Origin: Thermogemmatispora onikobensis
GTDB lineage: Bacteria > Chloroflexota > Ktedonobacteria > Ktedonobacterales > Ktedonobacteraceae
NCBI RefSeq assembly: GCF_001748285.1
Contig: NZ_BDGT01000029.1
Coordinates: 1 to 64,000, forward strand
Length of the DNA: 64,000 nt
Direction of reading: 5' to 3'
Shown: one piece after another, positions 898 through 16,829 of the stretch
Layout: every line of letters begins with the position of its first letter
Numbering within the stretch: position 1 is the first letter of the stretch
Made by a program: the position numbers and the translations under genes
Notes under the pieces: generated by a model
Seen by the model: the letters and a program-made list of their open reading frames with translations, nothing else
Databases searched by the model: none
Told to the model about the DNA's origin: nothing

Positions 898-1227
898 ATG
901 GCACTGCACACCTCGAGCCATGCCCCCATGCAGGGAGATCTCCAAGACCCCTCGAGCGCCCTCCCGCGGTACCGGTGGAACCAAGAGATCAGCATCAGCG
1001 GGAGCTGGTGCGTGGGCCTGTGGATGCTGGGGCTGCTCCTCAACGGGCTGGTGCTGACCAGGGGCTGGCAGCCGCCCCCGTCGTGGCTGGCCTGGGGTCT
1101 GGATGAACTGGTCGCCGGTGCCTTGCTGGGAGGCTGGCTGCTGCTGACCTGGTGGCGGCAGCAGCGGCTCTGGCTGATCGGAGCGCTGCTGTTGGTCGGG
1201 GCGCTCTGGCTCGCCTCCTGGCTGTGA
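898..1227 (+). CDS. Small membrane protein, about three TM helices
   Basis: 109 residues from the ATG at 898, chosen because AGAGGTG lies directly upstream (886-892). A polar 35-residue N-terminus is followed by three hydrophobic stretches (about residues 39-56, 66-84 and 90-108) separated by short Trp/Arg-rich turns. No family is recognised. It sits directly before a secreted muralytic enzyme, the kind of pairing seen in transfer regions of integrative elements, so a role in a cell-envelope or transfer apparatus continuing to the left is possible but not shown. Confidence 0.6.
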   Translation: MALHTSSHAPMQGDLQDPSSALPRYRWNQEISISGSWCVGLWMLGLLLNGLVLTRGWQPPPSWLAWGLDELVAGALLGGWLLLTWWRQQRLWLIGALLLVGALWLASWL

Positions 1228-1267
1228 GCCGGCGAGGCTCCCTCCAGCCCAAGGAAGGAGGCGTCCG

Positions 1268-1867
1268 ATGAGACGTGTGATGCTGCTTTTGGGAAGCTTT
1301 GCCCTGCTGTGGGGGCTGCTGGCGCTGGCCATCTGTGCCGGGGCCAGCGTGCCGGCAGCGGGAACGCCATCGCCCGGGCCAGATCAGGTGCCGGGCCACC
1401 GAGCGCCCGCCGCCGGTGGCGGGCTGGATCGGGTCCAGGGGCCGCCCACCATCGACCGCGCACTGATCGATCGGCTGCTGTGTCAGGCGCACAGCCCGGC
1501 CTGCGGCACAGGGGAGGCCCTCTCTGCCGACATGGTACAGGCCGGCATCAATCCGGCCTTTGCCCTGGCGGTGTTCTGGCACGAGTCGCAGTTTGGCCGC
1601 CTGGGGGTGGCCCGCCTGACCCATTCTCTCGGCAATATTCGATGTACGCCAGGCTGGCAGCGTTGCCTGGGCGGGTACCGCTGGTATCCTGACTGGCCAG
1701 CCAGCTACGCGGATTTCGCCGCCTTACTGACGCGGGAGTATTTCCCGCGGGGGCTGCTGACCGTCGAGCAGATCCTGCCGGTGTATGCGCCGGCGGCAGA
1801 CGGCAACGACCCGGCGGCCTACATCCATGATGTCCTGTCCCATATGAGGCAATGGAGGCTCGTATGA
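1268..1867 (+). CDS. Secreted lysozyme/glucosaminidase-like peptidoglycan hydrolase
   Basis: 199 residues. A hydrophobic signal segment (about residues 4-27) is followed by a Pro/Gly-rich linker and a C-terminal domain resembling lysozyme-like/GH73 glucosaminidases: an Ala-rich helix ending FWHESQFG (about residues 99-106, with the likely catalytic Glu), then LGNIRC, a W/Y-rich loop, and the ending TVEQILPVYAP..DPAAYI typical of such enzymes. It probably cuts cell-wall glycan outside the membrane. SD AAGGAGG is at 1254-1260. In a mobile element such an enzyme usually opens the wall locally for a transfer channel. The assignment to a family is by motif only. Confidence 0.65.
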   Translation: MRRVMLLLGSFALLWGLLALAICAGASVPAAGTPSPGPDQVPGHRAPAAGGGLDRVQGPPTIDRALIDRLLCQAHSPACGTGEALSADMVQAGINPAFALAVFWHESQFGRLGVARLTHSLGNIRCTPGWQRCLGGYRWYPDWPASYADFAALLTREYFPRGLLTVEQILPVYAPAADGNDPAAYIHDVLSHMRQWRLV

Positions 1868-2283
1868 CCGCTCGACACGAGGCCCAGCGGCCTCAGCAGC
1901 AGCAGCCTGCCGCCGAGGTGGGCTGGACGGCCTACGTACAGATGCGTCTCGTCAGCTCGCAGGTGAGCACGCTCCTGGAGCGGGAAGGCTTTCGGCTCAC
2001 CTTCCGCCTGCCAGCCTGCCGGCGCCGCTGGGGATGGCTGCCGGCTCAGTATCATTACACGGACGCGGCAGGCACGGAAGTGATCTGGCTCTCGGGCCAG
2101 GACCCGGAGGCGCGCGAGCAGGACCCGACGGCCCCGGAGCACCGCAGTCGGTTCTGGGTGTATGCCGCCCGACGGGCGCCGGAGCGGGCTGAGCAGATCC
2201 GGGCGCGCCTGCGCCAGGTCTGGGGCCTGGACTGGTACCCCTTGCCGGCGCAGCAGGTCAATCCGCTGCGCCCCATCTTCTGA
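1864..2283 (+). CDS. Hypothetical protein of the mobile element
   Basis: 139 residues from the ATG at 1864, which overlaps the stop of the hydrolase gene (ATGA) and follows GGAGG at 1854-1858; an in-frame ATG at 1852 is possible but less well placed. The protein is rich in Arg, Gln and Trp, with no signal peptide or membrane segment, and contains a short YHYTDAAGTEVIWLSG beta-like stretch. No family is recognised. Tight overlap implies translational coupling to the muralytic enzyme. Confidence 0.6.
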   Translation: MTARHEAQRPQQQQPAAEVGWTAYVQMRLVSSQVSTLLEREGFRLTFRLPACRRRWGWLPAQYHYTDAAGTEVIWLSGQDPEAREQDPTAPEHRSRFWVYAARRAPERAEQIRARLRQVWGLDWYPLPAQQVNPLRPIF

Positions 2284-2364
2284 GGGCTTCCTCAGCCCAC
2301 ATCAAGTCACCCTTCTGCCACAGCGGACCATCGTGCCCATGCGATGGGTCGAGAAAGGAGCTCT

Positions 2365-3168
2365 ATGGACCACCTCCAACACCTCACGACACTCCTGCGC
2401 CAGATCGAGCAGCTGGGTGCGACCGTCATGGAACCGCTGCCTCACCCGCTCTCCCTCGCCGAGGTGGAGCGTCGTCTAGCGCAGCGGCGCCACTTGCAAA
2501 CCCTCCTGCAGACGCTCGAACAGACCATCAACGAGCTGCCGGCCTTGCCCGATCCCGAGCGCATGGCCTGGGCCCAGGCGCTGCTGGCTCTCCCCAGCAG
2601 CCGCATCTTGGAAGTAGACACGACGCGCCTGGGAAGCACCGCGGAGCTGCTCCGGCTGGTGCTGGTACGCCCCAGCGACGGACAGACGGTCTTCGACCAG
2701 CTGATCCGTCCCCAACAGGGGTACGACCAGGCGGCGCTGACCTACAATGGACTGACGCCCGCCCAGCTAGAGCAGGCCCCCGAGCTGGCAACGGTCTGGC
2801 CTGCCTTCGAGCAGCAGGTCCGGGGGCAGCTCCTGATCAGTTGGAACTGGGCATGGGATGAGGAGCAGCTGCGCCGGGCGAGCCGCCGGCTCGGGTTGGG
2901 GGTACCGGTCCTGTTGGGGATCGATCTGCAGGAACCGGCGCGGACCTTCTTCTCTCAGTCCTATGCGGGCTTGCCCACCCTCTGCCGGCTCATCGGTGCT
3001 CCCCTCCCGCAGCCAGCCACAGCCGTGGATCGCGCCCGGGGGCAGCGAGCCATCCTGCGCGCGATGGCGGAAGGGCGCCTCGGTCCCCTCCACGAGCGCG
3101 AGCAGGAGGAAGTAGACGAGGGCGACCTGGATGCGCTGGACGACCTGGACGATACCCAGCCGTTCTAG
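2365..3168 (+). CDS. DnaQ-like 3'-5' exonuclease fold protein, catalytic residues degraded
   Basis: 267 residues from the ATG at 2365, chosen for AAAGGAG at 2354-2360. The middle third follows the DnaQ/DEDD exonuclease layout: a strand ending in LEVDTTRLG where active enzymes have DxETTGL, then LVLVRP..GQTVFD, NGLTPAQLEQAPEL, and WNWAWDEEQL in place of HNAxFD. The first Asp and the second-motif Asp remain, but the motif I Glu is missing and the third motif (H/Y-x-D) is unclear. It may be an inactive, structural relative or use altered residues. The C-terminus is a long acidic tail (many Asp/Glu). It precedes the element's ATPase and primase-polymerase genes, suggesting a proofreading or accessory replication role. 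Confidence 0.55.
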   Translation: MDHLQHLTTLLRQIEQLGATVMEPLPHPLSLAEVERRLAQRRHLQTLLQTLEQTINELPALPDPERMAWAQALLALPSSRILEVDTTRLGSTAELLRLVLVRPSDGQTVFDQLIRPQQGYDQAALTYNGLTPAQLEQAPELATVWPAFEQQVRGQLLISWNWAWDEEQLRRASRRLGLGVPVLLGIDLQEPARTFFSQSYAGLPTLCRLIGAPLPQPATAVDRARGQRAILRAMAEGRLGPLHEREQEEVDEGDLDALDDLDDTQPF

Positions 3169-3251
3169 TCCTGGCCAGGTGAGGGGATGCGAAGAGCATC
3201 CCCTCGCTCTGGGGCACACGACGATCCTCATCAGCAGGAAAGGAGCATCCC

Positions 3252-4199
3252 ATGAACATGAATGAGGAGCTAGAGGCGCTGGCCCAACGTGCCAGCGAGG
3301 TCTACGAAGAAGAGCAGCGCTCCTTCCGCGCCAGGCAAGCCGCCCAGGCTGCTGAGGAAGAAGCGGAGCGCCGCCAGGCCGAGCACCAGGCCCAGGAGCG
3401 CTTCGAGCAGGCGCTCACCCTCTTGGAGCGCAGTGGTCTCCCGTCTGTGATGCGTCCCTGGATGCGCAGGCTTCGTACGTATCCAGACTCCCTGACCATC
3501 CAGCTGCGGCTGCCCGAGCCTTTTGGCTGCAGCCAGTGTGACTGGCAGATCACTCTTCGTGATGAAGGCTGGTATGGGATCGCTGGCTGCGAGCGGGTCA
3601 ATGCCGCCACTGCCCGCTCCGGCTGGCTCCCCCCCGAGTCTTTCGTCCGCTGGCTGCTCTTTGGACTCGAAGCGTCGCGCCGGGAACATGCCCGGTGGCA
3701 GGCACTGAAGGCCGAAGACGAGGTGGCCCGTGCCGAACTGGCAGAGCGGCAGGCAGAGGTCCTGGCGCGCGCCTGTCCCTGGCCCAAGGAGGCAACAGTC
3801 ACGCTCTACCAGGTCCACTATGTCCGGGGCATGGTGGCGACAGAGGAAGGGGAGCTGCGCTGGTTGGAAGAGACGGGCTGGAGCCGGAGCGATCAGCCGG
3901 ATGCGGAAGGGTACCTGACGTTGGAGCCGACGGCCACCTGTCCAGAGCGGCGCCTGCTCAAACTCGATCCCCTCCTGCATCGACCGCTCTTCCGCAAGCA
4001 CGTGCTCTCGCTCAAGGAGTTGCCCCGGGAATTGACCGAGGAGCGCGAGGAGCAGATCCGTGGGTTCCGGCGGCAGAGGTGGGAAGAGGGGGGCTGGCTA
4101 GTCCGTGACCCGTCGGGGTCTGTCTCCTTCTCCTTCCGCGTCCCGTCTTTCTGGCTCCAAGAGCTGCTGCGGAACATCTCCTATGAGTCACCATCCTGA
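3252..4199 (+). CDS. Hypothetical coiled-coil protein with a CxxC motif
   Basis: 315 residues, SD AGGAAAGGAG just upstream. Residues about 1-60 are an uninterrupted acidic/basic coiled coil (EEEAERRQAEHQAQERFEQA-type). A CSQC pair near residue 96 and a further Cys follow, then a second helical stretch and a basic C-terminal third. No family is recognised. Its last 17 bases overlap the ATPase gene that follows, so it belongs to the replication operon and may be a partner of that ATPase; this is inferred from position only. Confidence 0.6.
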   Translation: MNMNEELEALAQRASEVYEEEQRSFRARQAAQAAEEEAERRQAEHQAQERFEQALTLLERSGLPSVMRPWMRRLRTYPDSLTIQLRLPEPFGCSQCDWQITLRDEGWYGIAGCERVNAATARSGWLPPESFVRWLLFGLEASRREHARWQALKAEDEVARAELAERQAEVLARACPWPKEATVTLYQVHYVRGMVATEEGELRWLEETGWSRSDQPDAEGYLTLEPTATCPERRLLKLDPLLHRPLFRKHVLSLKELPRELTEEREEQIRGFRRQRWEEGGWLVRDPSGSVSFSFRVPSFWLQELLRNISYESPS

Positions 4200-5955
4200 G
4201 CTTCCGTCTGCGGACCAGGTCATGCAGCGCTTCGTCCAGCAGCTGTGGGAGGGCCGGCACCCTGCCCTCCCACCGGCAGACCAGCTAGGTTCCTGGCAGC
4301 CACTGGCCTCCCTGCTGGCAGAGCAGGCCGTCCGCTTCCGTCAGCACCCTACCGTCCTCCAAACCACCCTGCGAGCGCTGGCAGTCCGCGAGCCGGCTTT
4401 GCAGCGCTGGCTTGGTCTGTCTGCTGCACCTTTGTCAGAGCCAGGGGCCGCGCCGTCTTCCCTGGCGCCCGAAGCGGAAGAAGCGGAAGAAGAAGAAGGC
4501 ATGCCTCCGTTGCCGGAGGACCTCTCCTTTCCGCCAGAAGTGAGTGCAGGAGTCTGGCCCACGTTGGATGCGTATGTGGCCTACAGTCGGCAAGCCTCCC
4601 CCGAGGCATACGAGGACTTCCATGTGCTCGTCGGGCTGTGGGTCTTTTCCACCGTGGCCGCACGGCGGATCTATCTGCCGTTGCAGCACAAGCGGGTCTA
4701 TCCCACTCTCCTGCTGGTGTTGGTCGCACGCCCGTCATTGTTTGCCAAGACCACCACCGCGCAGGCAGGCCGTGCGCTGTTACAGGCGGCGGGCCTGGAC
4801 TGGTTGCTGCTCCCGGACCGGATCACGCCGCAGAAACTCCTGTCGGATCTGGCCCTGACGACCGTCCCCCCAGGCTATGATGAGCTCCCGCCCGAGCAAC
4901 AAGCGCGCCTGCAGCACCGGCTGGCCATGCCTGGGCAACGCGGCTGGTACCTGGATGAATTCGGCAAATTCGTCCGGGCGGCGCTGCAACCGCGCAGCAC
5001 GATGGCCGATTTTATTGAGCTGTTGCTGGTGCTCGAAAGCTGCCCGCCGTATTTCGAGCACGCGACCCTGTTGCGTGGGGGAGAGGTCATCGAGCGTCCT
5101 TCCCTGGCGGTGCTGGGGAGCATGACGCCGGCCAGTCTCCGACTCGTGGCCCAACCGGGGGCGGAGCTCTGGCATGATGGCTTTCTAGCGCGCTTCGCCT
5201 TCGCCGTAGCCCCCCTGCGTGAGGTTCAGCAACAGACCTTCACCCCAGGGGAGGCGGAGCCGCCGCGAGCACTGCTCGAGCGCCTGCGGTCCTGGCACGA
5301 GCGGCTGGGACTCCCAGAGCTGCGCCTGGAGCCGCAGGAAGGGGGCACCGGAGGAGGACCGAATCGCTACCGGCTCCAACGCGGGCCCCTGCCGGAGCGA
5401 GCCTGTCAGATCAGCCAGGAGGCGTATGTGGGCTATGACCGCTATCGCCGGGCGCTGCGGACCCTGTTGGCGAGCAGCCCCCTGGAAGATTTGGACGGGG
5501 CCTACGGGCGCCTGCCGGAGTTGGCGCTGAAACTAGCCCTGCTCAATGCCAGCCTCGAACAGCAGGATCGCCGGGAGCCGGCTCGCATCGAGCTGGCGCA
5601 CTGGGCCAAAGCCCAGGAGCTGGCGGAACGCTTTCGGCTCCATCTTCATCGCCTCCATGCCCAGATGCGAGCCACGAGCAGCGAAGAGAGTATTGAAGAT
5701 CACCTGGCCCGCTTCCTGCAGCGTCTCCCGCCAGGGGAGGCGGTGACCATTCGCGATATCCAGCGGAGAGCGCCGGCGATCCTGCGCCAGGTCCCCGCTG
5801 CCCGCTTGCGCGAGGCACTGCACCTGTTGCTGCAGGCTGGGGAAGTCGAGCAGCTGCAAAGTGGAAGCCGGCTGCTCTACCGCTTCCGTGGTCGGTCGGA
5901 AGAGGGCACGGGGCCGCTCACCAATTCATTCCAATCCCTAAGCGGGCTGACGTGA
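4183..5955 (+). CDS. DUF3987-type ATPase of the replication module
   Basis: 590 residues from the ATG at 4183, just inside the end of the preceding gene; a longer frame from 4105 would begin with low-complexity shadow sequence. The layout matches DUF3987 (primase-associated RecA-like ATPases of plasmids and elements): a helical N-terminus, YLPLQHKRVYPTLLLVLVA, a P-loop-like PSLFAKTTTA (degenerate Walker A with Lys-Thr-Thr), a Walker B-like GWYLDEFGKF, LAVLGSMTP and the GFLARFAFAVAP segment. The C-terminal 70 residues look like a winged helix (DIQRRAP..RLREALHLLLQAGEVEQL). Such proteins are commonly encoded beside primases and may unwind or load at the origin, which lies immediately downstream here. 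Confidence 0.7.
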   Translation: MSHHPELPSADQVMQRFVQQLWEGRHPALPPADQLGSWQPLASLLAEQAVRFRQHPTVLQTTLRALAVREPALQRWLGLSAAPLSEPGAAPSSLAPEAEEAEEEEGMPPLPEDLSFPPEVSAGVWPTLDAYVAYSRQASPEAYEDFHVLVGLWVFSTVAARRIYLPLQHKRVYPTLLLVLVARPSLFAKTTTAQAGRALLQAAGLDWLLLPDRITPQKLLSDLALTTVPPGYDELPPEQQARLQHRLAMPGQRGWYLDEFGKFVRAALQPRSTMADFIELLLVLESCPPYFEHATLLRGGEVIERPSLAVLGSMTPASLRLVAQPGAELWHDGFLARFAFAVAPLREVQQQTFTPGEAEPPRALLERLRSWHERLGLPELRLEPQEGGTGGGPNRYRLQRGPLPERACQISQEAYVGYDRYRRALRTLLASSPLEDLDGAYGRLPELALKLALLNASLEQQDRREPARIELAHWAKAQELAERFRLHLHRLHAQMRATSSEESIEDHLARFLQRLPPGEAVTIRDIQRRAPAILRQVPAARLREALHLLLQAGEVEQLQSGSRLLYRFRGRSEEGTGPLTNSFQSLSGLT

Positions 5956-6237
5956 CGTTTCGACGGCCCCCTCTCTAGAGGAGCATCAGGAGCGGCGTCC
6001 GTCAAGCGGGTTCGAGCATCCCAAAAACGCCTCGGGGTGAGCAGGTGTCACGAGTGTCGCATGACTGTCGCATCGATTTCGTGACACCTCTCAGTCCGCA
6101 TGGCAAGCCGGATCAAGGGCATTTTTTGAGGGGGTGTCGCATGTGTCACGAGTGTCATAGAAGAGAAGGGGGAATGCTTTCCTCCGAAGTGTCGCCAGTC
6201 ATACCCCCGTCTAAGTACCATAAGCTCAACAATATAT

Positions 6238-6263
6238 GATAAAAATAGAGTCCCCCTTTTATC
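6238..6263. other. Small palindrome in the AT-rich centre of the putative origin
   Basis: GATAAAA (6238-6244) is matched by TTTTATC (6257-6263) around a C-rich loop. It sits close to the middle of the large inverted repeat, in a region with ATATATA runs, where strand opening would be easiest. Confidence 0.5.
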
Positions 6264-6289
6264 AGTATAGAATATATATAGTCCTCTGT

Positions 6290-6306
6290 CAACCCTGAAG
6301 GGGTTG
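6290..6306. other. Hairpin CAACCC-TGAAG-GGGTTG in the putative origin
   Basis: A perfect 6-bp stem with a 5-base loop, on the right side of the AT-rich centre just before the right arm. Both strands could form it; it could be a primer or protein recognition site. No T-run follows on either strand, so it is not a convincing terminator. Confidence 0.5.
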
Positions 6307-6477
6307 AAGAGGGGATTGCTTCCCCCTCTCCTCTTATGACACTCGTGACACATGCGACACCCCCCCAAAAAAGGGCCTTCAGCCCGCTTCACAAGCCAGC
6401 GCAGGGGTGTCACGAACGTGATGCGACAGTCATGCGACACTCGTGACACCCTGCACAGGAGAGAGAAAGGAGACCCT

Positions 6478-9400
6478 ATGTCTGCATCACCTGCAACTTT
6501 TGTCAGATCGACCTTTATGCGCTCATTGGCGGAGATTGACCTGGTGCACCTGATCCAGCAGGAAACAGGACTGCAGTTCTCGCACCCGGTGGGCAAGGAT
6601 CGCGTCGCCAAGGGACCCTGTCCCTGGTGCGGGGGGCGTGATCGGTTCGGCATTGTGACGGCCACGCAGCCCCAGCGCTTCTACTGCGGCTGGCATGGGC
6701 AGGGATGCCTGCGCCACGGCGATGCCCTGACGTTTCTCGCTCTCTGGAAGGGCTGGAGTCGGGCAGAAGCGCGGGCCTGGCTGGGATGCTGGGAGGAAGA
6801 GAGAGGACTGCTGGCTGCTGCAGGGGCGGCGTCACAGGGGTCGGTAGCGGCGGACGCCCCCCCGCCCCAGCAGTGGCAGGAGGCAGGCCGGGCCTTGCTG
6901 GAGCAGGCGCAGCGATGGCTGTGGACAGAGCAGGGTGCCGTTGCACGGGCCTATCTGGCTCGACGCGGCTTGCGGGAGGAGACGGTGCGTCGACTCGGGT
7001 GGGGGTACCTTCCTGCCGGCGTGCCGCTTGGCCAGCTGGCACGTCCAGAGACCTGGGGGCTGACCGATCGCGAGCCAGATCGCCCACTGCGGCTGCCGGT
7101 GGGCCTGGTGATCCCGTGGGAAAGCGCGGGGGCGCTCTGGAAACTGGTCTTCCGCCGGGTGGAGCAAGGGCAGGTGGAGCACAGGCGGGTAGCCTCGGCC
7201 AGAGCTGGAAGATCCTGGCGCTACTGGACGCTGCCAGGGAGTCGACCCTGCCTGTATCGGCTGGACCGTCTGCAGGCAGGCCAGCCCGTGGTGCTGGTCG
7301 AGGGGGAGATAGATGTGGCGACGCTGGAGCAAGAGGTCGGGGAGCTAGTGGTCTGCGTGGGCACGGGAGGAGCGGCAGGGGCACGAAGCCCGACCTGGGT
7401 GGAGCGTCTGCACCAGGCCGCGTGCGTGCTGGTGGCCTTTGATCAGGACCCGCAGGGACAAGGCGCCATTGCAGCACGCTACTGGTTGGAAGCCCTGGGA
7501 GCGCGCGCCTGGCTGTGGCAGCCTATCAGCAAGGACGTCAATGAGATGCTTCAAGCGGGGCAGGATCTCCGCGCCTGGGTTCAGGCGGGTCTGGTACTCG
7601 CGCAGGCAGCGACAGCACTCCCAGCCGCTTCTGAACTGCAGCCATCGGAACAGGAGCCAGAGCAGGATCACCTGACCCGGGCGACTCGAGCGCCCGAAGA
7701 CATGCCGGCCCTCGCCGCAGACGAAGAGAGGTCCGGGTCGCCTGTGGACAGCATGCCGCCACCGTTGCCCGAGGAAGAGGGCTGCCAGTGCTGTGGGAAA
7801 CCGGCCCACTGGGTTGACCCTGATGATCGTCCCTGTTGTGAGGAGCATGTCCTCCCCTGGGATCTGACTCCGCTTGTGAGCAGGGGGCTGTTTGAGCGCC
7901 TCCGCAGCGCGGCATGGACCTGGGAACACCTGGTGCGTGCAGTCGCTCCTTCGGCTGCCCCCGAGGGGGCGGATGGGCACGGCCAGCCCGCCACGTCGCT
8001 GCCGGAGCAGGAGAGCAGCGCTGAGGACGCGGAGCAGTTGGAATACACCGCGCTGCTCCTCTACGAATTGGTGCTGCGTATCCGGTCAGGCTCGGCCTGG
8101 GTGGGCCTCGACTGTGAGACGACCGGGCTTTCCCCGCGACGCGACCGGTTGATCACCGTGACCTTTGGCCAGCCCGGCCTGGTCTTCCTGCTGGATCTGC
8201 GCTTGTTCTGGACCATCCCCGCCGAGGAGCAAGCGCGCTGGAAACGAGAGATCCAGGCGCTCTTTGCGCTGCTCGGGCAAGCGGCAGCGGAGGCGCAGAC
8301 AGTGCTCACCTGGGTTGGGCATCACCTGAAGTTTGACTGGCAATTTCTGGCCCAGCAGCTGGGGGTCTTCCTGGTCCCGCCCGGTCCTTCCGTCTCCACG
8401 CGCCTCTACGATACCATGCTGGTGGAGCAGGTTCTCCGGAATGGAGACGACTGCTCCTGGTCGCTGGAAGCGACCGCGCAGCGCTACGGGGTGGCAGTGA
8501 GCAAAGTCGAGCGGCCCTGGTTTGTGGGCCTGGATCACCGCATGGCCTGGCAGGAGTCATTGCCGGAGCCACAGCTGCGCTACCTGGTGCAGGATGTTCT
8601 GGTGCCGCTCGCGATTGCCGCGCAGCAACAGGAGCGCATCCGTCGGGTGGGCGTCGAACGCATCGTTCAGCTGGAACACGATGCCCTGCCGATAGTGGCC
8701 GAGATGGAACGGCATGGGGTGCTCATTGACCAGGTCTCCTGGCAGCGGCTTGCCAGGCGCCAGCAGGAGCGACTGGAACGCATCGAGGCAGACCTGACAG
8801 CCACGCTGGGAACCATCTGGGCCGAGTGGAAGGAGCGTCAGGAGCCTCTCAGACAGCTGCACCTGCTGGAGGGATCGGCAGCCTCTCCAGCAGCCGTGCG
8901 CTTCTCTCTGCATATCCTCCAGCAGGTGCGGGAAGCATTAGAGGTCGTCTGTGGCGCGCCGCTGTCGGGCCTCAGTGAGGAAGCGCTGGCCCCCTTTGCA
9001 GACCGGGCAGAGGTGCAAGCCTATCTGGAATGGCGCAAGCTGCAGCATTGGTGCACGACCTTTGGGGAGTCCTTCTTGCGCTATGTGGAAGAGGATGGCC
9101 GCATCCATGCCGACTTTCGGCAGGTGGGGGCCCGGTCGGGCCGCATCATTTGCCAGACCCCGAACCTCCAGCAGATCCCGCGCCGCTCTGTGGGGGAGCC
9201 AGGCGACGCCGGGCCAGAGGAGGAGGACGAGATCCTGGTCGCAGGAGCACTGCGCCGCTGCTTCGTCGCCCCGCCGGGAGCGAAGCTGCTGACAGTGGAT
9301 CTCGCCAATATTGAGTTACGCATCCTGGCCGAGTGCGCACACGATGAGCGCATGCTGACGGCCTTCGCTGCCGGTAAAGACCTGCATAGCGAAACGGCTC

Positions 9401-9987
9401 GCCTGGTATTTGGGCTGCCAGAGGAGGCTGATCCGCGGCGAGAGCGCTGGGGAATGCTCTCCATGCGCGAGGTGGCCAAGGCAGTCAACTTTGGCCTGCT
9501 CTATGGCATGGGACCGGCCAGCCTGGCGCGGCGGATCGGAGTCTCGCTAGAGGAAGCCCGACTGCTGATGGAACGCTTCTTTGCCGCCTACCCGCGGGTC
9601 AGCTCCTGGTTGCAGCGGGCCAGCCGGCAAGCCTTGCGGCGGGGAGAAGCGCGCACCCTGGGCGGGCGCGTGCGTTGGTTCAAACGGCAGCAGGCAGGAG
9701 CAGAGCCACCGGGCCTACTGGAGCGGGCAGCGCGTAATCATCCCATCCAGGGCACCAATGCCGATATCCTCAAGCAGGCGCTGGCCCTGCTCTGGCAACG
9801 GCTGCCCGTGGAGGTCCACGTGGTGCTGGTGGTCCATGACGAACTTGTGCTGGAATGCCCGAACGAGCGGGTGGAAGAGGCCATCTGTATGCTCCAGCAG
9901 TCCTTGATGGATGCGTGCCGGGAATGGTTACCGACAGTCGCCTTACCGGAGCCAGAGGTGTGCTGTGCTCCCTGGTGGAGGAAATGA
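6478..9987 (+). CDS. Primase-like (CHC2 + TOPRIM) / 3'-5' exonuclease / family A DNA polymerase fusion
   Basis: 1,169 residues. The start at 6478 follows AAAGGAG at 6466-6472; longer frames would read through the inverted repeat. Domains in order: CHC2-type zinc finger (C48, C51, C70 and H73 or C77, then GDALTFL); helical linker; TOPRIM (E275-G-E277, then D322-Q-D324); a small Cys cluster (CQCCGKP near residue 437); DEDDy exonuclease (D545-C-E547, D619, Y702/D706); polymerase A with HADFRQVGARSGRI, motif A (D941, E946), motif B (R997, K1001, NFGLLYG to 1010) and motif C (H1120-D1121-E1122). All key exonuclease and polymerase residues are present. It probably primes, proofreads and replicates the element. 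It resembles a bacterial counterpart of the apicoplast primase-polymerase polyprotein but lacks a helicase domain, which the upstream ATPase may supply. Confidence 0.9.
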   Translation: MSASPATFVRSTFMRSLAEIDLVHLIQQETGLQFSHPVGKDRVAKGPCPWCGGRDRFGIVTATQPQRFYCGWHGQGCLRHGDALTFLALWKGWSRAEARAWLGCWEEERGLLAAAGAASQGSVAADAPPPQQWQEAGRALLEQAQRWLWTEQGAVARAYLARRGLREETVRRLGWGYLPAGVPLGQLARPETWGLTDREPDRPLRLPVGLVIPWESAGALWKLVFRRVEQGQVEHRRVASARAGRSWRYWTLPGSRPCLYRLDRLQAGQPVVLVEGEIDVATLEQEVGELVVCVGTGGAAGARSPTWVERLHQAACVLVAFDQDPQGQGAIAARYWLEALGARAWLWQPISKDVNEMLQAGQDLRAWVQAGLVLAQAATALPAASELQPSEQEPEQDHLTRATRAPEDMPALAADEERSGSPVDSMPPPLPEEEGCQCCGKPAHWVDPDDRPCCEEHVLPWDLTPLVSRGLFERLRSAAWTWEHLVRAVAPSAAPEGADGHGQPATSLPEQESSAEDAEQLEYTALLLYELVLRIRSGSAWVGLDCETTGLSPRRDRLITVTFGQPGLVFLLDLRLFWTIPAEEQARWKREIQALFALLGQAAAEAQTVLTWVGHHLKFDWQFLAQQLGVFLVPPGPSVSTRLYDTMLVEQVLRNGDDCSWSLEATAQRYGVAVSKVERPWFVGLDHRMAWQESLPEPQLRYLVQDVLVPLAIAAQQQERIRRVGVERIVQLEHDALPIVAEMERHGVLIDQVSWQRLARRQQERLERIEADLTATLGTIWAEWKERQEPLRQLHLLEGSAASPAAVRFSLHILQQVREALEVVCGAPLSGLSEEALAPFADRAEVQAYLEWRKLQHWCTTFGESFLRYVEEDGRIHADFRQVGARSGRIICQTPNLQQIPRRSVGEPGDAGPEEEDEILVAGALRRCFVAPPGAKLLTVDLANIELRILAECAHDERMLTAFAAGKDLHSETARLVFGLPEEADPRRERWGMLSMREVAKAVNFGLLYGMGPASLARRIGVSLEEARLLMERFFAAYPRVSSWLQRASRQALRRGEARTLGGRVRWFKRQQAGAEPPGLLERAARNHPIQGTNADILKQALALLWQRLPVEVHVVLVVHDELVLECPNERVEEAICMLQQSLMDACREWLPTVALPEPEVCCAPWWRK

Positions 9988-10110
9988 GACCGGAGCCTCT
10001 CTGCGTCCATGCACCTTCCCAGCCGCTTCCCGCCTGCCTCCCATGCACTTCCCCCGTTCGTTCGTGCTGCGAAGCAAATGAAAGAGCCTATCAGGACGAA
10101 AGGAGCCAAC

Positions 10111-10386
10111 ATGCACGACGCTTTTTCCTTCACCATCCTTTGGGGACTGCTCGCGCTCTCCCTGGGCGTTTTCATCTGGTACGTGCTGGCCGCCTGGCGC
10201 CACTGGCGCCAGGTCGAGCAGGACTTTCAGGAAAGAGAGGAGCGGTATCGGCAGTGGGTGGAGGAGGACCGAGAAGCGGGGTTCCTTGATGATAACGATG
10301 CAGAGTTGCTCTTAGACAACTCTGCTCGGGCCTCTCGCTGGGTCGCGCGCCACTGGCGCCAGCGCCAGCAGGAGCAGCAGCCATGA
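10111..10386 (+). CDS. Small single-pass membrane protein
   Basis: 91 residues; SD AAAGGAG lies 5 to 11 bases ahead of the ATG at 10111. A hydrophobic segment at about residues 6-28 is followed by a long charged helix (WRQVEQDFQEREERYRQWV) and a basic Gln-rich tail, giving a membrane anchor with a cytoplasmic coiled coil. Its stop overlaps the start of the transglycosylase gene (ATGATG), so the two are translationally coupled. No family is recognised. Confidence 0.65.
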   Translation: MHDAFSFTILWGLLALSLGVFIWYVLAAWRHWRQVEQDFQEREERYRQWVEEDREAGFLDDNDAELLLDNSARASRWVARHWRQRQQEQQP

Positions 10387-12380
10387 TGGTTCCTCCGATG
10401 TTTACCAGGGGTGCCCGGGGAGGTGGGCAGATCCTGACTCGAGAGGGGGTGGAGATCTCCACCCCGGCGCTCTTTCCCGTTGCCTCCCTGATCACGGGAG
10501 GCACGCCACGCGGAGGTGGGATCTGGAAATGGGTGCTCCATGCCCATCCACAGGGGCTGCTGCGCCAGCAGAGGCCCATCATGACCCAGGTCCTCCACTT
10601 CCTGGATTTCCCCCTCAGTCCTGGCGAACTTGCCCGGTGGCGGCAGCGTCCCTTGCGCGAGCACTATCAGGCCGCCTTTCCTGAGCTGCACTATCGGGCG
10701 CCTCTCTTCTGTGACTCTGGAGGCTTCCGGCTGCTGTGGAATAGTCAGCTCGACCTTTCGCGCTATGGACTGGAAGCCACGCCGCAGACCATTCTGCGCT
10801 TACAGCAGGATTTCGGGGCCAGTCTCCTTGCCACCCTCGATTATCCGCTCCCATCCGGGCTGGTGCGCGCAGAGGCCGAGGCGCGTATGGCGCGCAGTCT
10901 GGCCAATGTGGGGATCACCCTGCGCCTGCTGGCGGAGCAGTCTGGCCCTCCCCCGTTCGTGTATGCGGCGGTCCATGGGCAGACCCCCGACGACCTGCGC
11001 CACGCGGTGCAGCGCGTCTTTGCGCTGCGCGAGGCCGAGGGGCTGCAGCGCATCCCGCTGGGGATTGCCATCGGTTCGCTGGTGCCGTTGCGCCTGCGGG
11101 GGGCCGAGAAGCTGCTGACCATCATCGACCTGGTGCAGGCCGCCATCGAGGGCATTCCGGCAGCCGAGCGGCCCACGACCCCGGTGCACCTGTTTGGGGT
11201 CACAGGCACGCTCATCCCGCTGCTCGCCTATCTTGGAGTGGATACCTTTGACTCCAGTACCTACGTGCAGATGGCGCGGAGCTTCCGCTATCTCGATCCA
11301 GTCAGGCACCGCTTTGTGCCGGTGCTCGAACTCCAAGAGCTGGCCTGTAACTGCCCGGTGTGTCAGACCAGCTCGCTCGCGGAGCTGCAGGCGGGGCTGA
11401 CGTCCCTCACCCCGGCGGGCCGCCCGTTAGAGACTGGCACCCAGAAGAGTCGGTATTATGCCGAGGTGGCGCTGCACAATCTCGAGCAAGATCTTCGCCT
11501 GGTGGAGGAGGTGCGCCAGGCGGTGGCAGCAGACGCCCTGGCGGACTTTCTGCTGCGCTGGGTGGAGGGGCATGAGCGCCTCCGAGAGGCTCTGGCCCGG
11601 CTTCAGCAGCGAGACGAGCGCTTGCGCCGGCTCGGCTCGAGGCGTTCGTTTGGTGGGACCAGTCAGCCCAGCTTGCCAGCGGGGACCGGTGGCCGTCGGG
11701 CCGTCTCCCTGGCCTACACCCCCGAGGCATTCAACATCGAAAGCCGGGGCTATGCTCCCCCGGCGGACAAGCGGGTGTTGCTGGTGTTGCCCTGCTCGGG
11801 AGAGAAACCCTATTCGCAGTCGCGCACGCACCGCTACGTCAGAGAGCGGCTGCAGGCGGCACTCGGTGACCGACTGCACAGCATTCACTGGGTGACGCTC
11901 TCGGGCCTGTATGGGCCGGTGCCCGAGGAGTGGGAGCAGGTCCCCGAGGTGCTGGGCTACGACTTCCGGTTGGAGGGAAGCAACCAGCAGCACATCGAGC
12001 TGGTGGCCGGGCGGCTGACCCGCTATCTGGAGCGCTGGGGAGAGCACTACGTGGCCTGCCTGGGGTATGCGACCAGTCGAGCCTACCGGCAGGCGATGGA
12101 GCTGGCGGCGCGCCGCACGGGCCGGCTGGAGGTGTTGCCCTGCAAACCGAAAGCCCGTCGACTGACCGCCTTCTTTCGCCAGGAGCATCTGGAGGAGCTG
12201 GTGGCACGTCTCCGACTTGAAACGAAAGGAAGGAAACAGGATGGCAGACCACGAGCGCCACATGGAGCCGCCGTCTCCCGAGCAGCTGGCGCGCGAGAGG
12301 ACCCTCTTTGCCTCCTTGAGCGCCATCGAGCGCGGCGACTTCGCCACGATGGACGAGATCTTGCAAGAGGCCATGAATGA
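10383..12380 (+). CDS. Guanine transglycosylase fused to archaeosine-synthase (ArcS/DUF5591) domain
   Basis: 665 residues. The N-terminal domain (about 1-430) is TGT/DpdA-like: an RGG..EISTPALFPVA opening as in archaeal TGT, the pocket Asp in CDSGGF (D111), the nucleophile in VDTFDSSTY (D290), and zinc ligands C322, C324, C327 and H365. The C-terminal domain (about 460-610) is DUF5591 and carries the complete ArcS signature PC-x3-KPY-x2-S-x2-H at P470-H483. ArcS attaches lysine to preQ0 on tRNA in archaeosine synthesis. There is no PUA RNA-binding domain. The protein could exchange guanine for preQ0 and then modify it, on DNA or tRNA. The last 45 residues overlap the methyltransferase gene and look like read-through. 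Start: ATG 10383, overlapping the previous stop; 10386 is equally possible. Confidence 0.85.
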   Translation: MMVPPMFTRGARGGGQILTREGVEISTPALFPVASLITGGTPRGGGIWKWVLHAHPQGLLRQQRPIMTQVLHFLDFPLSPGELARWRQRPLREHYQAAFPELHYRAPLFCDSGGFRLLWNSQLDLSRYGLEATPQTILRLQQDFGASLLATLDYPLPSGLVRAEAEARMARSLANVGITLRLLAEQSGPPPFVYAAVHGQTPDDLRHAVQRVFALREAEGLQRIPLGIAIGSLVPLRLRGAEKLLTIIDLVQAAIEGIPAAERPTTPVHLFGVTGTLIPLLAYLGVDTFDSSTYVQMARSFRYLDPVRHRFVPVLELQELACNCPVCQTSSLAELQAGLTSLTPAGRPLETGTQKSRYYAEVALHNLEQDLRLVEEVRQAVAADALADFLLRWVEGHERLREALARLQQRDERLRRLGSRRSFGGTSQPSLPAGTGGRRAVSLAYTPEAFNIESRGYAPPADKRVLLVLPCSGEKPYSQSRTHRYVRERLQAALGDRLHSIHWVTLSGLYGPVPEEWEQVPEVLGYDFRLEGSNQQHIELVAGRLTRYLERWGEHYVACLGYATSRAYRQAMELAARRTGRLEVLPCKPKARRLTAFFRQEHLEELVARLRLETKGRKQDGRPRAPHGAAVSRAAGAREDPLCLLERHRARRLRHDGRDLARGHE

Positions 12381-13233
12381 TGCGCTCTTGGAACAGATGA
12401 TTATTGATGCTCATGAATATTCCCTTGAAGAAGGGAACAAGTCCCCTTGCATGAGGCCGAGCTGGAGAGACTGCGCCAGCTCGTCTGGCAGGCGCTGGAA
12501 AAGGCCGGTCTGTCTCGATCTCTTTTGCGGAGCCGGGGGAGCCGCATGGGGCTATGCGCTGGCCGGGTTCGAGGTCATCGGGGTGGATTGCCGTCCGCAA
12601 CCGCGCTATCCGTTTCGCTTCCTCCTGGGAGATGCCTTGACCTGGCTAGAACAGGTGCAGGACCAGGTGGATTTGATCCATGCGTCCCCTCCCTGTCAAC
12701 GGTGGAGTCCACGGACCCCGGACCGGACCCGCCACCCGGATTGGGTCCATCCCACCCTGGCGCGACTGCAGGCGCTGGACAAGCCGTTCGTCCTGGAGAA
12801 TGTGCCGGGTGCACACCCGGTGCTTCGCTCCGCCCTCCTGCTCTGTGGCTCCATGTTCGGTCTTCCCCTTCGGCGTCATCGACTTTTCCAGAGTAATCTC
12901 CTCCTCTTTGCGCCAGGTCCCTGCCACCACGAGGTCTGCCGATATGGCGTCTATGGGCATTCAGTGTGGGTGCTGCAGCGGCAGCGGCAGCGAGAGGAAC
13001 GGGCCACCACCAGCGTGGCCCAGGGGCGGCGGGCGATGGGGCTTCCCTGGATGAGCCAGGCCGAGCTGGCGCAGGCCATTCCGCCGCACTACACCTGGTG
13101 GCTCGGCTGGCAGGTGCGCGCCGTGTTGGAAGGGGGTCGCTGCCCTAACCTGGCGCCTGACCTCGCTTCCCTGGTCACAGACAGGCCAGGGTTTCCAGAC
13201 CCTGGGAGAGCAGATCAGGGAGGAGCTTCATGA
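12241..13233 (+). CDS. DNA (cytosine-5-)methyltransferase, with odd N-terminal segment
   Basis: 330 residues from ATG 12241 (SD AAAGGAAGG, 12225-12233). The methyltransferase part begins near residue 90: SAM motif LDLFCGAGG (D93-G99), the catalytic SPPCQRWS (C152), FVLENVPG and the LPLRRHRLF (QRRxR-like) motif, and a short target-recognition region before a GLPWM..ELAQAIPP ending. It probably makes 5-methylcytosine in DNA. Residues 1-70 are an acidic helical segment. Between 12447 and about 12510 a different frame reads more naturally (HEAELERLRQLVWQALEK), so a frameshift or two overlapping genes are possible and the true start may be at 12451. The next gene overlaps its stop by ATGA. Confidence 0.8.
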   Translation: MADHERHMEPPSPEQLARERTLFASLSAIERGDFATMDEILQEAMNDALLEQMIIDAHEYSLEEGNKSPCMRPSWRDCASSSGRRWKRPVCLDLFCGAGGAAWGYALAGFEVIGVDCRPQPRYPFRFLLGDALTWLEQVQDQVDLIHASPPCQRWSPRTPDRTRHPDWVHPTLARLQALDKPFVLENVPGAHPVLRSALLLCGSMFGLPLRRHRLFQSNLLLFAPGPCHHEVCRYGVYGHSVWVLQRQRQREERATTSVAQGRRAMGLPWMSQAELAQAIPPHYTWWLGWQVRAVLEGGRCPNLAPDLASLVTDRPGFPDPGRADQGGAS

Positions 13234-13730
13234 AGCGAGAAACCCCACAGGAGAGCGTCCCCCTTCCCCTGGCACGGGTCCTGCTCCCCGTAGGCTATGG
13301 CGCCCCGCTGCATCGCACCTGCATCGACCAGGCGCTGGTATGCCTGCCCCGCGCGCTGCTGGTGGAGGTGCGCTGGTCATCGCGCTCGCGCCTCCCTGGG
13401 TGGGGAGGCGCGGCCCTCCGCCGGCGCTATGGAGCGCGCTATCTGGATGTGGGTCCCTTGCTGGGGAACAGCGCCTACCGGGAGCCGGGGCAGATCCGCA
13501 TCGCCGCCCTGCCCCAAGGGGTAGAGGTCCTGCTCCAGCTCATGGAGCAGGGCCACACGCCCTTGCTGCTCCTGTGCGGCTGCGCGGAGTATCTGCGCTG
13601 TCACCGCCGCCAGATCTGTGAGGCCGTGCAGGCAGCCGATCCGTCAGTGACCATCTGGCAGCCGGAGCAGGTGCTGCTCTGGCTGGCGAGCCTGCCTCGA
13701 CAGGAGGGACCTCACACATGTTCTGTGTGA
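13230..13730 (+). CDS. DUF488 family protein
   Basis: 166 residues, starting inside the methyltransferase stop (ATGA), hence translationally coupled. The C-terminal LLLLCGCAEYLRCHRRQI matches the DUF488 signature (LLC-x2-E-x3-CHR), and the mid region RYLDVGPLLGN resembles the conserved strand preceding it. DUF488 proteins are small, of uncertain biochemical role, and often accompany DNA-repair or modification genes. Being the last gene of the transglycosylase/methyltransferase operon, it may take part in base modification or its control; this is inference. Confidence 0.75.
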   Translation: MKRETPQESVPLPLARVLLPVGYGAPLHRTCIDQALVCLPRALLVEVRWSSRSRLPGWGGAALRRRYGARYLDVGPLLGNSAYREPGQIRIAALPQGVEVLLQLMEQGHTPLLLLCGCAEYLRCHRRQICEAVQAADPSVTIWQPEQVLLWLASLPRQEGPHTCSV

Positions 13731-13835
13731 GAAAGGAGCGCTGATACACCTGAGCATTCCTGGACCTGCAGGGAACAGCCTCCGTGTGTCCGGCAGGCCC
13801 CGTCAGCAGCAGGTAACCGAAAGGAGGAAGACAGG

Positions 13836-14270
13836 ATGGAGCCACGTGAGCATAAAGGACAGCCAGTCTCCTCTCTCCCGCTTGACCAGGAACGGTGGAT
13901 CGAGCGCGCCCGCACTGCCGGAGGCCCTCGCTTCGCCGAGCTGGTCGAGCGGCTCTGCGCCGTCGCTCCCGCAGCCTGGGTTGAGGAGCTGATCACCTGC
14001 GTGGAGGGGGTGCGCCAGGCTCTCCTGGAGGACCTCACCGCCGAGGAAGCCCTGCAGGCCCTGGCCAGGGCCACGGCACGGCTCCTGCAGGAACTGTCTC
14101 CAGCAGACCCGCGCATCGAGACCCTGCTGGCCTGGGTCGAGGGAGAGACGCCCCGATCCACCGGTTCCCGCCGGCCAGGGCACCTGCCCCGTGCGTCTGG
14201 CGCTGCGCGCGGAGGGCAGGGCCAGGTGGCCCCGGAGCAGCACGCGGCGGCTGCCACCCTCTGGGAGTGA
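13836..14270 (+). CDS. Hypothetical protein of the mobile element
   Basis: 144 residues, SD AAAGGAGGAAG just upstream of the ATG. Residues about 15-105 are an Ala/Leu/Glu-rich all-helical domain; the last 35 residues are Gly/Arg/Pro-rich and likely disordered. No family is recognised. It lies alone between the modification operon and a small CxxC protein. Confidence 0.6.
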   Translation: MEPREHKGQPVSSLPLDQERWIERARTAGGPRFAELVERLCAVAPAAWVEELITCVEGVRQALLEDLTAEEALQALARATARLLQELSPADPRIETLLAWVEGETPRSTGSRRPGHLPRASGAARGGQGQVAPEQHAAAATLWE

Positions 14271-14381
14271 CCCCAGAGCGGACCAGTGGCCGGCAGGCTC
14301 TAGCTCCTGGTCCGAGCGCCATCAGGAACCCGCCCATCAGCCAGGCAGGAAGGCAAGACGCAAGAAAGGAGAGCGGCTGAC

Positions 14382-14705
14382 ATGACAGGATCACCACCTG
14401 GACCCGCGGCAGGGGTCTGCCCCTTTTGCGGGACATCACGGGAGCAGCTCCACGTCTGGGAACAATGGCTCGAGCGCACGCTGGCCCGCGAGCGGGCGTA
14501 TCTCGACCGGCGCAAGCGTCGGGGCGTGCGCACGCCCACGGACGACGTCCTGGAAGAGGATCAACGGCAGCTGCAGACCCTCCTGCAGGTGATCCGCCGG
14601 GCGCGGGCGTGTGCCCCGCTGGCGGGAGCGTTCCCCCTGACACCAGCAGGGCAGCAGGAACCGCCCCTGCGCCCTTCCTGCTCCTCTCCCGAGGAAGGGG
14701 CCTGA
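14382..14705 (+). CDS. Small protein with an N-terminal CPFC knuckle
   Basis: 107 residues with [17 protein letters not shown] at about residues 13-18 is half of a zinc knuckle; no second CxxC follows, so metal binding would need a dimer or partner. A helical, Arg/Glu-rich middle and a Pro-rich tail follow. No family is recognised. Confidence 0.55.
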   Translation: MTGSPPGPAAGVCPFCGTSREQLHVWEQWLERTLARERAYLDRRKRRGVRTPTDDVLEEDQRQLQTLLQVIRRARACAPLAGAFPLTPAGQQEPPLRPSCSSPEEGA

Positions 14706-14764
14706 GCTGGTCCTCTGGTTGTTCCGCTCACCCCCGCTGCTTCCCGCCTGGTTCCCGTGCCGTT

Positions 14765-14793
14765 CCCAGGGATCACCGTGAGTGATCCCTGGG
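14765..14793 (+). terminator. Perfect 12-bp hairpin, terminator-like
   Basis: CCCAGGGATCAC (14765-14776) pairs exactly with GTGATCCCTGGG (14782-14793) across a 5-base loop. It is followed by a weakly T/C-rich stretch rather than a clean T-run. It separates the CxxC gene from the small gene before the recombinase and so probably ends the upstream transcript; a protein-binding palindrome is the alternative. Confidence 0.55.
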
Positions 14794-14884
14794 TGTTCCT
14801 CTGCCTTCCCACTCCTTTCCGCCTATCATGGACTATTGTTGCTCTGAGACAAGGAATGATCGCTTCTTCTGAAGGAGAAGATGT

Positions 14885-15079
14885 ATGGACCATCCGACGC
14901 ATGAGCAGTATAATTCCCAAGAAGAACCTCTTCCCCCAGAGGTCCTCGCCTTTTGTCGACTGGTCGCTCGGATTATTCGACGTGCTTTACAGGATCAATT
15001 ACTCGACGCAGAAAGAGGGTGCCCCGCAGGACTGTCGGTCTCCTCTCTGCAGGGAGAGAAGCCGGGGCAGAAGAAGTGA
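14885..15079 (+). CDS. Small protein ahead of the recombinase; candidate directionality factor
   Basis: 64 residues; AAGGAG lies 7 bases before the ATG. It is acidic at the start and basic at the end, with a central helix (CRLVARIIRRALQDQLLDA). It ends 16 bases before the serine recombinase start, so both are likely made from one transcript. Position and size would suit an excision (directionality) factor or a small regulator, but no sequence motif proves this. Confidence 0.55.
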   Translation: MDHPTHEQYNSQEEPLPPEVLAFCRLVARIIRRALQDQLLDAERGCPAGLSVSSLQGEKPGQKK

Positions 15080-15095
15080 GCGCAGGGGGTGAACG

Positions 15096-16694
15096 GTGAC
15101 TTCACCAGAGTCAGGTCTTGTCGCCGGCTACGTGCGCCGTTCCAGCGAAATGCAGAAAGACAACTATAGTCTCGAGGCCCAGAAGCGTGCCATTCGCGAG
15201 GCGGCGAAGCTGCACGGATTACCAGAGCCGGTCTTCTATGAGGACGACGAGCGTAGTGCGCGGGGAGAACACATTGCGAAACGTCCAGCTTTTAAGCGGC
15301 TCCTCGAGGACGTCCAGGCAAAGCGTATCCGGGTCGTGATCGTCCATACCCTGGACCGATGGTCCAGGAACGTGATGGTGACCTTGCAGAGCTTTCGCAT
15401 TCTCTCCCAGGCAGGCACTGCGTTCCTTTCCCTTTCGGAGCACATCGATTATTCCTCTCCAGAAGGACAATTGCAGCTGACGATTCTCGCGGCCTTTGCG
15501 GCTTACTTTTCGGACAGCCTGGCAAGGCACACGAGCAAAGGGAAAAGGGAGCGGGCTGTCCAGGGACTGCATAACGGCGATATCCCTTTTGGATATCGCT
15601 CGGGAGGGCCAAAATCGCCGCTAGAGATTGACCCAGACAAATATCCAGGCGTCCGCTTGATAGGCGAGTTGCGCATGCAGGGAAAGACTGCCGAGGAAAT
15701 TGCTACTGCCTTGAACGCGGCTGGCTACCGTACCAGCAGCAAGCGGTTTGGAGATCGACTCTTCACGAAGGATACGATTAATGCTATGTTACGGAACGAA
15801 TTCTATGCGGCCTTTGCCCCCGGCGATGATCGGGGGACCATCCGCTACAAGGGGCAGCGGTTTCGAGGCCAGCATCCGGCGATCTTCACGTATGATGAGT
15901 GGCAACACATCCGTGCTCTCTCAAAATCCTTGTGCCACGTCCAAACCCGCACGGTTGTCGTCCGGAAGATCTACCCATTTGCGGGATACATTGCTTGCAT
16001 TCATTGCGGCCTGACGCTGCGCTGTGATACGGGAAACACGCCTGCCAATCGGCGAAATTACTACCGGGACGCAGCCAAAACGCGCCGTATTCCTTGCTCC
16101 ACCAGCGGCAACTTGATGGTGCGCACCAACCTGGTAGAGGAGCAGTTTGGCCACCTGCTCAAGCGTCTCCAGTTGCCTGAACACTGGCGTGAGCACATCC
16201 GCCAGGAAATGATGGCCCAGGCGGCATCAGGAACCACGTCTGAGGCAGTCGAGCGGGAGAAGGAGCGACTGCTGCTCAAGAAGGCGCGTACGCTCAAGGT
16301 GTATTGCGAGGGGTTTATTGATGAGAAGGAATTTCAGGCCGAAATGGCCGCAACAGAGCTGGCACTCAGGAAACTGGAGGTCCCCGAGGTCAACGGGGTG
16401 ACGCTCGCAGAAGTGACCCAGGCGGGTGAACATCTGCCCGAGATGGCAGCCCTGTGGGAGATGGCCACGCCCGAGGAGAAACGGGAGATGGTGACGATGT
16501 TGCTGGAGCCAGGGGGACTGTACTACGATCTGGAGAATAAGATGATTGCGGCGCTGAAACCCCGTCCAGCCTTTCTGCCCATCTTGCGCATGCTGGACGG
16601 GGTAACTGAGTACGAGGAAACCAGAGGGCTGCTGTTGACAGCCCACTGGTGCGAGCGGAACCGACGGGATTCGAACCCGCGATCTCCTGCGTGA
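15096..16694 (+). CDS. Large serine recombinase (element integrase)
   Basis: 532 residues from GTG 15096, preceded by GCAGGGGG. The N-terminal resolvase domain contains GYVRRSSEMQKDNYSLEAQ (catalytic Ser in RRSS, about residue 12), VHTLDRWSRN and the long helix that ends in ARHTSKGKRERA. The middle is the recombinase domain (PFGYR..IATALNAAGYRT...TINAMLRNEFY), followed by a zinc ribbon (CIHCG, then a later Cys) and a C-terminal coiled coil. It would integrate and excise the element. Uniquely, its last 13 codons (RNRRDSNPRSPA and stop) lie inside the tRNA-Asp gene, so the protein's C-terminus is donated by the host site and should change when the element excises. Confidence 0.93.
   Translation: MTSPESGLVAGYVRRSSEMQKDNYSLEAQKRAIREAAKLHGLPEPVFYEDDERSARGEHIAKRPAFKRLLEDVQAKRIRVVIVHTLDRWSRNVMVTLQSFRILSQAGTAFLSLSEHIDYSSPEGQLQLTILAAFAAYFSDSLARHTSKGKRERAVQGLHNGDIPFGYRSGGPKSPLEIDPDKYPGVRLIGELRMQGKTAEEIATALNAAGYRTSSKRFGDRLFTKDTINAMLRNEFYAAFAPGDDRGTIRYKGQRFRGQHPAIFTYDEWQHIRALSKSLCHVQTRTVVVRKIYPFAGYIACIHCGLTLRCDTGNTPANRRNYYRDAAKTRRIPCSTSGNLMVRTNLVEEQFGHLLKRLQLPEHWREHIRQEMMAQAASGTTSEAVEREKERLLLKKARTLKVYCEGFIDEKEFQAEMAATELALRKLEVPEVNGVTLAEVTQAGEHLPEMAALWEMATPEEKREMVTMLLEPGGLYYDLENKMIAALKPRPAFLPILRMLDGVTEYEETRGLLLTAHWCERNRRDSNPRSPA
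16653..16694. other. Right attachment junction of the element (inside tRNA-Asp)
   Basis: The recombinase coding sequence crosses into the tRNA 3' half here, which is where the element/chromosome junction should lie. The exact crossover dinucleotide cannot be fixed without the left end, which is outside the window. Confidence 0.6.
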
Positions 16695-16729
16695 CAGGCA
16701 GGCGTGTTAGGCCACTACACTACGGCTCC
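16656..16729 (-). tRNA. tRNA-Asp (GTC)
   Basis: Read on the minus strand from 16729. The acceptor stem GGAGCCG pairs with CGGTTCC, with a G discriminator; D arm GTGT/ACAC; anticodon stem CCTGC/GCAGG around loop CTGTCAC with anticodon GTC; T arm GCGGG-TTCGAAT-CCCGT. The CCA end is not encoded. The 3' half is shared with the recombinase reading frame, so the element inserted at the tRNA 3' end and kept the gene whole. Confidence 0.95.
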
Positions 16730-16736
16730 CCAACCA

Positions 16737-16762
16737 GCGAGGCTGAGTCTCTTCAGCCTCGC
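16737..16762 (-). other. Hairpin in the tRNA-Asp leader
   Basis: GCGAGGCTGA (16737-16746) and TCAGCCTCGC (16753-16762) form a perfect 10-bp stem with a 6-base loop between the promoter and the tRNA 5' end. It would sit in the 5' leader of the tRNA precursor. Confidence 0.6.
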
Positions 16763-16776
16763 TCGTGGCAGTTGCT

Positions 16777-16806: not shown

Positions 16807-16829
16807 GCATCTCTTTTGCGCTTCCTAAC

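Follow-up and report, generated by a model that had tools for sequence, protein, structure and literature searches.

A single open reading frame of an integrative element in Thermogemmatispora onikobensis joins a DnaG-type primase to a proofreading family A DNA polymerase. The combination of a DnaG-type primase and an exonuclease-polymerase (exo-PolA) in one bacterial chain appears to be new, with none found in the part of the literature searched, while related fusions, namely the PREX protein and a DUF927-PolA viral polyprotein, were known already. With a probability of about 0.68, we take this gene for a real in-frame fusion of two replication genes from mobile elements that gives the element a compact replicase. 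Together with the adjoining DUF3987 gene and origin-like DNA, the fusion resembles a compact private replication machine, whereas its relatives keep both jobs in separate proteins. The window analyzed here is a stretch of 64,000 nucleotides, to which all coordinates refer unless another locus is named.

Domain architecture of the fusion protein

The gene and its parts are arranged as follows.
6478-9987, + strand: primase-exonuclease-family A polymerase fusion (1,169 aa, ATG start, AAGGAG at 6467-6472)
6520-6792, + strand: DnaG-type zinc-binding domain (residues about 15-105; C48, C51 and C77 invariant in 29 homologues)
6865-7617, + strand: RNA-polymerase domain of DnaG type, including TOPRIM (residues about 130-380; E275, D322, D324, D353)
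7618-8067, + strand: linker, in which residues 436-457 (7783-7848) form a small zinc-knuckle-like motif, CxxC...CxxxH
8083-8622, + strand: DEDDy 3'-5' exonuclease (D545, E547, D620, Y702, D706)
8623-9984, + strand: family A polymerase (D941; R997/K1001/F1005/Y1009; H1120-D1121-E1122)

The frame runs to the stop codon at 9985-9987 with no internal stops, and the AAGGAG lying 5 nt before ATG 6478 constitutes a good ribosome site; an alternative longer frame from ATG 6352 adds 42 aa without any Pfam domain. The first-pass annotation had described a zinc finger, a TOPRIM, a DEDDy exonuclease and the polymerase A motifs within this one 1,169-residue frame, and Pfam, alignments and fold confirm these parts, with the motif residues present. 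Pfam detected neither a 5'-nuclease domain nor DUF927 in the chain, and neither Pfam nor NCBIfam detected a helicase domain. At the junction of the two halves, GC and GC3 show no step, the frame stays unbroken across about 155 linker codons, and no convincing internal start preceded by a Shine-Dalgarno sequence was seen in the linker, whose zinc-knuckle-like motif is similar to one near the N-terminus of stand-alone exo-PolA relatives.

The polymerase half is clear from the proposed domain search, as Pfam assigned DNA_pol_A to residues 833-1144 (E = 3.4e-73) and DNA_pol_A_exo1 to residues 536-715 (1.2e-5). Motifs A, B and C of family A polymerases and the DEDDy exonuclease residues are all present, the roles of these residues being set by known Pol I motifs. 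The best NCBIfam model was the bifunctional exonuclease/polymerase of the PRK14975 type, at 374.7 bits and under its cut-off of 640. In phmmer comparisons, the half matched Taq/Klenow-type Pol I at about 1e-47 and the PREX polymerase, more weakly, at about 5e-26, and PREX was accordingly rejected as closest kin.

Since the primase claim carries the finding, it was checked by separate routes. Pfam returned Toprim_2 (4.3e-4) and Toprim_3 (9.8e-4) over residues 271-360, both under curated cut-offs, as well as Zn_Ribbon_Prim (0.007). Aligning the primase family profile with the host's own DnaG by hhalign gave a probability of 99, and hmmsearch of PDB sequences retrieved the DNA primase 2au3 (E = 9e-19). 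In the fold comparison, made with an AlphaFold model of pLDDT 83.7, the best Foldseek match of the primase half was again 2au3, the Aquifex DnaG, across its zinc-binding and RNA-polymerase domains (E = 1.3e-13), followed by other DnaG domains and then by Twinkle and T7 gp4. The fusion holds the TOPRIM residues E275, E277, D322, D324 and D353, including the EGE and DxD motifs read earlier, and the zinc ligands C48, C51 and C77. The three cysteines, E275, D322 and D353 are kept in all of the 29 relatives of the primase alignment, and the acidic TOPRIM set (Glu, DxD and a further Asp) is conserved as E275, D322, D324 and D353 in that alignment. As modelled, the N-terminal half has a primase fold, and the Foldseek match to DnaG bears out the TOPRIM/CHC2 fold on which the original reading depended.

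The integrative element and its exchanged cassette

Around the fusion gene, the element comprises the following features.
2344-3168, + strand: DnaQ-like exonuclease that belongs to the element but not to the exchanged cassette
4105-5955, + strand: P-loop ATPase of the DUF3987 family, presumed to be the replicative helicase (invariant K215 and E285)
6044-6174, unstranded: origin-like 131-nt inverted repeat, left arm, holding two GTGTCACGAGTGTC boxes
6175-6319, unstranded: AT-rich centre separating both arms (GC about 36-47%, against about 55-65% in the flanks)
6320-6450, unstranded: right arm of the inverted repeat, two boxes reversed
15096-16694, + strand: integrase of the element, a large serine recombinase whose gene ends within tRNA-Asp
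16655-16729, - strand: tRNA-Asp, presumed attachment site at the right end

The fusion had been called helicase-free, which is true of the polypeptide alone: the DUF3987 P-loop gene lies directly upstream, with no likely gene between the two, and occupies the same place beside the primase-half homologues of Ktedonobacteria. Its product scores 44.5 bits against the Pfam DUF3987 cut-off of 27 and carries a Walker A of the form AKT/S, not GKT/S. The structural model is poor (pLDDT 63.5) and gave only weak MCM matches (E about 0.01); the protein is a presumed helicase.

Between the two genes, the arms of the 131-nt inverted repeat match each other at 82% and hold four exact, iteron-like GTGTCACGAGTGTC boxes, for which 0.28 occurrences would be expected in the window at up to two mismatches. 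Elsewhere in the genome, the extended box recurs once, with 2 mismatches, which is within the control level. The inverted repeat was not found in relatives, whose repeats between helicase and primase genes differ from those of the window, and leftward promoter-like sites occur within the AT-rich centre. The natural reading of this arrangement is a putative replication origin; a double operator is possible.

That the fusion belongs to an integrative element is upheld by the serine recombinase ending in tRNA-Asp and by a sister species (G005) carrying the same element at the same tRNA-Asp, with 97-99% DNA identity to window positions 1158-4144, 11845-13357 and 13765-17118; the left end of the element, however, was not found. 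No second copy of the tRNA-Asp attachment region was found, other matches with 2-3 mismatches resembling other tRNA genes, and no SSB or initiator was identified.

In the part of the sister element matching window 4145-10026, a CRISPR array, two unassigned ORFs and an IstB/DnaC-like ATPase are found instead, and homology resumes 40 nt past the stop codon of the fusion gene. This segment is swapped whole, and thus the DUF3987 gene, the origin-like DNA and the primase-polymerase gene travel as one cassette of about 5.9 kb. The exchange is the best evidence that the three would form one functional unit.

In the replacement segment (L251, 6624-10118 on G005:C4), the CRISPR array has at least 6 repeats; the segment also includes ORFs encoding 145 and 369 aa, along with the IstB/DnaC-like ATPase. 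Window 5929-6027, covering the end of the DUF3987 ORF and DNA beyond it, matches a CRISPR leader that carries just one repeat, a degenerate one; identity to L251:9147-9225 is 95% over 79 nt. Comparable leader-repeat copies occur here and there in this region of sister genomes (L253, L262), with a real array in L251, and module exchange may run through such copies.

Further along, window 10383-12380 encodes a TGT/archaeosine-synthase-like protein (PF01702 and DUF5591) adjoining a C5 methylase and a DUF488 gene, and these may constitute a 7-deazaguanine DNA modification set. The sister element lacks window 10077-11844. On the right-hand side of tRNA-Asp, two insertions, one of about 18 kb (G003:C1 3958454-3976262) and one of about 48 kb (G005:C4 517082-565447), have flanks that overlap near window 17087-17118, which suggests a second insertion site.

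Distribution and ancestry of the two halves

A tally of 280 partly overlapping loci yielded at least 124 primase and at least 141 polymerase ORFs, and both occur together only in the window's own frame, which is itself present in two of the 280. Among the matches listed, no second fused copy appeared in 400 Chloroflexota genomes with each half as query, in phages (5,000 records) and plasmids, or in GTDB contigs; the 47 genomes of the class held none either, and a scan of viral contigs with the single protein gave no match. The annotation's view that the fusion is unusual therefore stands for the close relatives sampled, where no other fused copy was seen, and the search for fused homologues that it proposed returned none among the close homologues listed. 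Known from one genome only, the fusion appears to be rare among its close relatives.

Three candidates for a comparable fusion were rejected. A 1,155-aa frame in G057 has a primase N-terminus and no PolA by profile or Pfam. On one viral contig (L321, 4945-7572), a uracil-DNA glycosylase is joined to exo-PolA, and on another (L303, 3070-7584), a 1,504-aa ORF holds an AEP Prim-Pol, an exonuclease and PolA in one chain; neither is a fusion of the same kind. Distant or independent fusions may exist elsewhere, the AEP-containing chain being one.

In relatives of the host within Ktedonobacteria, including Thermosporothrix and Dictyobacter among those named, the primase half is a stand-alone gene of about 410-577 aa directly after the DUF3987 gene, and several viral homologues are also preceded by a DUF3987 gene. 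The exo-PolA half is likewise a stand-alone gene in its relatives, several of which lie beside AEP primases. In four loci examined, exo-PolA follows an AEP Prim-Pol gene, with a 4-nt overlap in two, and all four of these AEP-linked relatives (L025, L026, L027, L030) bear a TubC_N docking domain at the N-terminus. This domain, familiar from peptide and polyketide synthases, is absent from the fusion, where covalent linkage may stand in for docking.

Phylogenies placed the window's primase half in a mobile-element clade of 13 rows (SH-aLRT 96) and its polymerase half in one of 12 rows (SH-aLRT 100), apart from chromosomal PolI. Both trees were quick and the window's rows sit on long branches, such that placement is by clade and exact sisters are uncertain; the suggested phylogeny of the polymerase part thus separates it from chromosomal PolI without fixing its nearest relative. 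Judged from these trees, the halves belong to two different mobile-element clades, and the host's PolI and DnaG are encoded elsewhere in the genome. One viral contig (L065) encodes in succession, and unfused, an AAA-ATPase, a primase and an exo-polymerase, which offers a possible picture of the ancestral arrangement. The ten viral contigs nearest in the primase half, among the matches listed, have no such polymerase, and these contigs may be fragments.

Proposed replicase, rival readings and known systems

In the reading we favor, a DnaG-type primase that normally follows a DUF3987 gene was joined to a normally stand-alone proofreading family A polymerase. Replication of the element would be set up at the inverted repeat between the DUF3987 and fusion genes, where the DUF3987 protein would unwind DNA as a helicase in trans and the primase half would make short RNA primers. 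The linked exo-polymerase would then take the primer over in cis and extend it with proofreading, the whole working like a reduced T7 or PREX replisome with its helicase supplied in trans. As the fusion has no 5'-nuclease, primer removal would fall to host enzymes. In its fullest form, the proposal is that one bacterial polypeptide serves as the autonomous replicase of an integrative element: its DnaG-type primase would initiate DNA synthesis on bare ssDNA and pass the primer intramolecularly to its proofreading family A polymerase, with a DUF3987 helicase encoded separately and an origin belonging to the system. This has in our estimate an even chance of being right.

Loss of priming is unlikely, yet it has some grounds. 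The primase half would then be a DNA-binding or helicase-docking arm tethering the polymerase to the DUF3987 ATPase, as its TOPRIM Pfam scores under cut-off and the docking domain found in its place in stand-alone polymerase relatives might suggest; animal Twinkle has lost primase activity (PMC3610141). The fusion's acidic TOPRIM residues and zinc ligands are nevertheless those conserved in the 29 homologues. A role of the cassette in repair or defense instead of element replication seems highly unlikely to us. It would accord with the neighboring genes of modification type (TGT-like, C5 methylase) and with weak PADLOC matches to RT-associated PolA and DnaG-like models, and the option has been raised for the PolA-SSB primases of other elements (PMC10061031), but the sister element has a DnaC/IstB-like module in place of the whole unit, an exchange that fits replication modules.

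The prospect that primase and exo-polymerase are two genes whose joining is a mistake in the assembly or the sequence, or the result of a very recent functionless stop loss, is very remote. The fusion does come from one draft genome of 112 contigs, and in the viral contig with the same gene order the two genes are separate, 0.8 kb apart. Separate genes, however, need an intergenic region or a start, both absent here: the roughly 155 linker codons are open, there is no good internal start with a ribosome site and no GC step, and the linker has retained its zinc knuckle.

As a genuine fusion, the gene would exemplify how mobile elements build replicases from interchangeable modules. If active, the protein would be a primer-independent proofreading polymerase that could serve DNA amplification, possibly thermostable if the host is as thermophilic as it appears.

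In apicoplast PREX of Plasmodium and Toxoplasma, a single chain, which is processed, comprises primase, helicase, 3'-5' exonuclease and family A polymerase (PMC8113025). The first-pass annotation had named it as the closest plan, which holds for the layout of primase, exonuclease and family A polymerase in one chain and fails for the sequence (about 5e-26 against about 1e-47 for Taq/Klenow); moreover, the PREX chain includes the helicase, whereas here a helicase-type gene of the DUF3987 type is separate. In the OS3173 polyprotein of a Thermocrinis Octopus Spring virus, DUF927 and exo-PolA form one chain, as they do in some relatives, while in other relatives they are separate (PMC7689252). Both proteins join exo-PolA to a replication partner, which is DUF927 primase/helicase-like there and a DnaG-type primase without helicase here. 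The 1,504-aa viral ORF also places primase, exonuclease and PolA in one frame, but its AEP primase (PF09250) has no kinship with TOPRIM primases.

In CcPol-MP and related PolA-SSB primases of SCC-like elements, PolA itself primes with an SSB partner, an OB-fold protein whose gene lies between those of polymerase and helicase, whereas here no SSB was found and a TOPRIM primase is attached; the integrative element, large serine recombinase, helicase (a presumed one here) and family A polymerase are common to both (PMC10061031). Model replisomes need contacts between separate proteins for the hand-off from primase to polymerase, for which the fusion, if active, would offer a one-protein system. 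In T7, gp4 is a primase-helicase in one protein and the gp5 polymerase is separate. T7 gp4 with gp5 and the system described here are both small replisomes, presumed in our case, in which a TOPRIM primase acts with a helicase and a family A polymerase; the primase is joined to the helicase in T7 and to the polymerase here.
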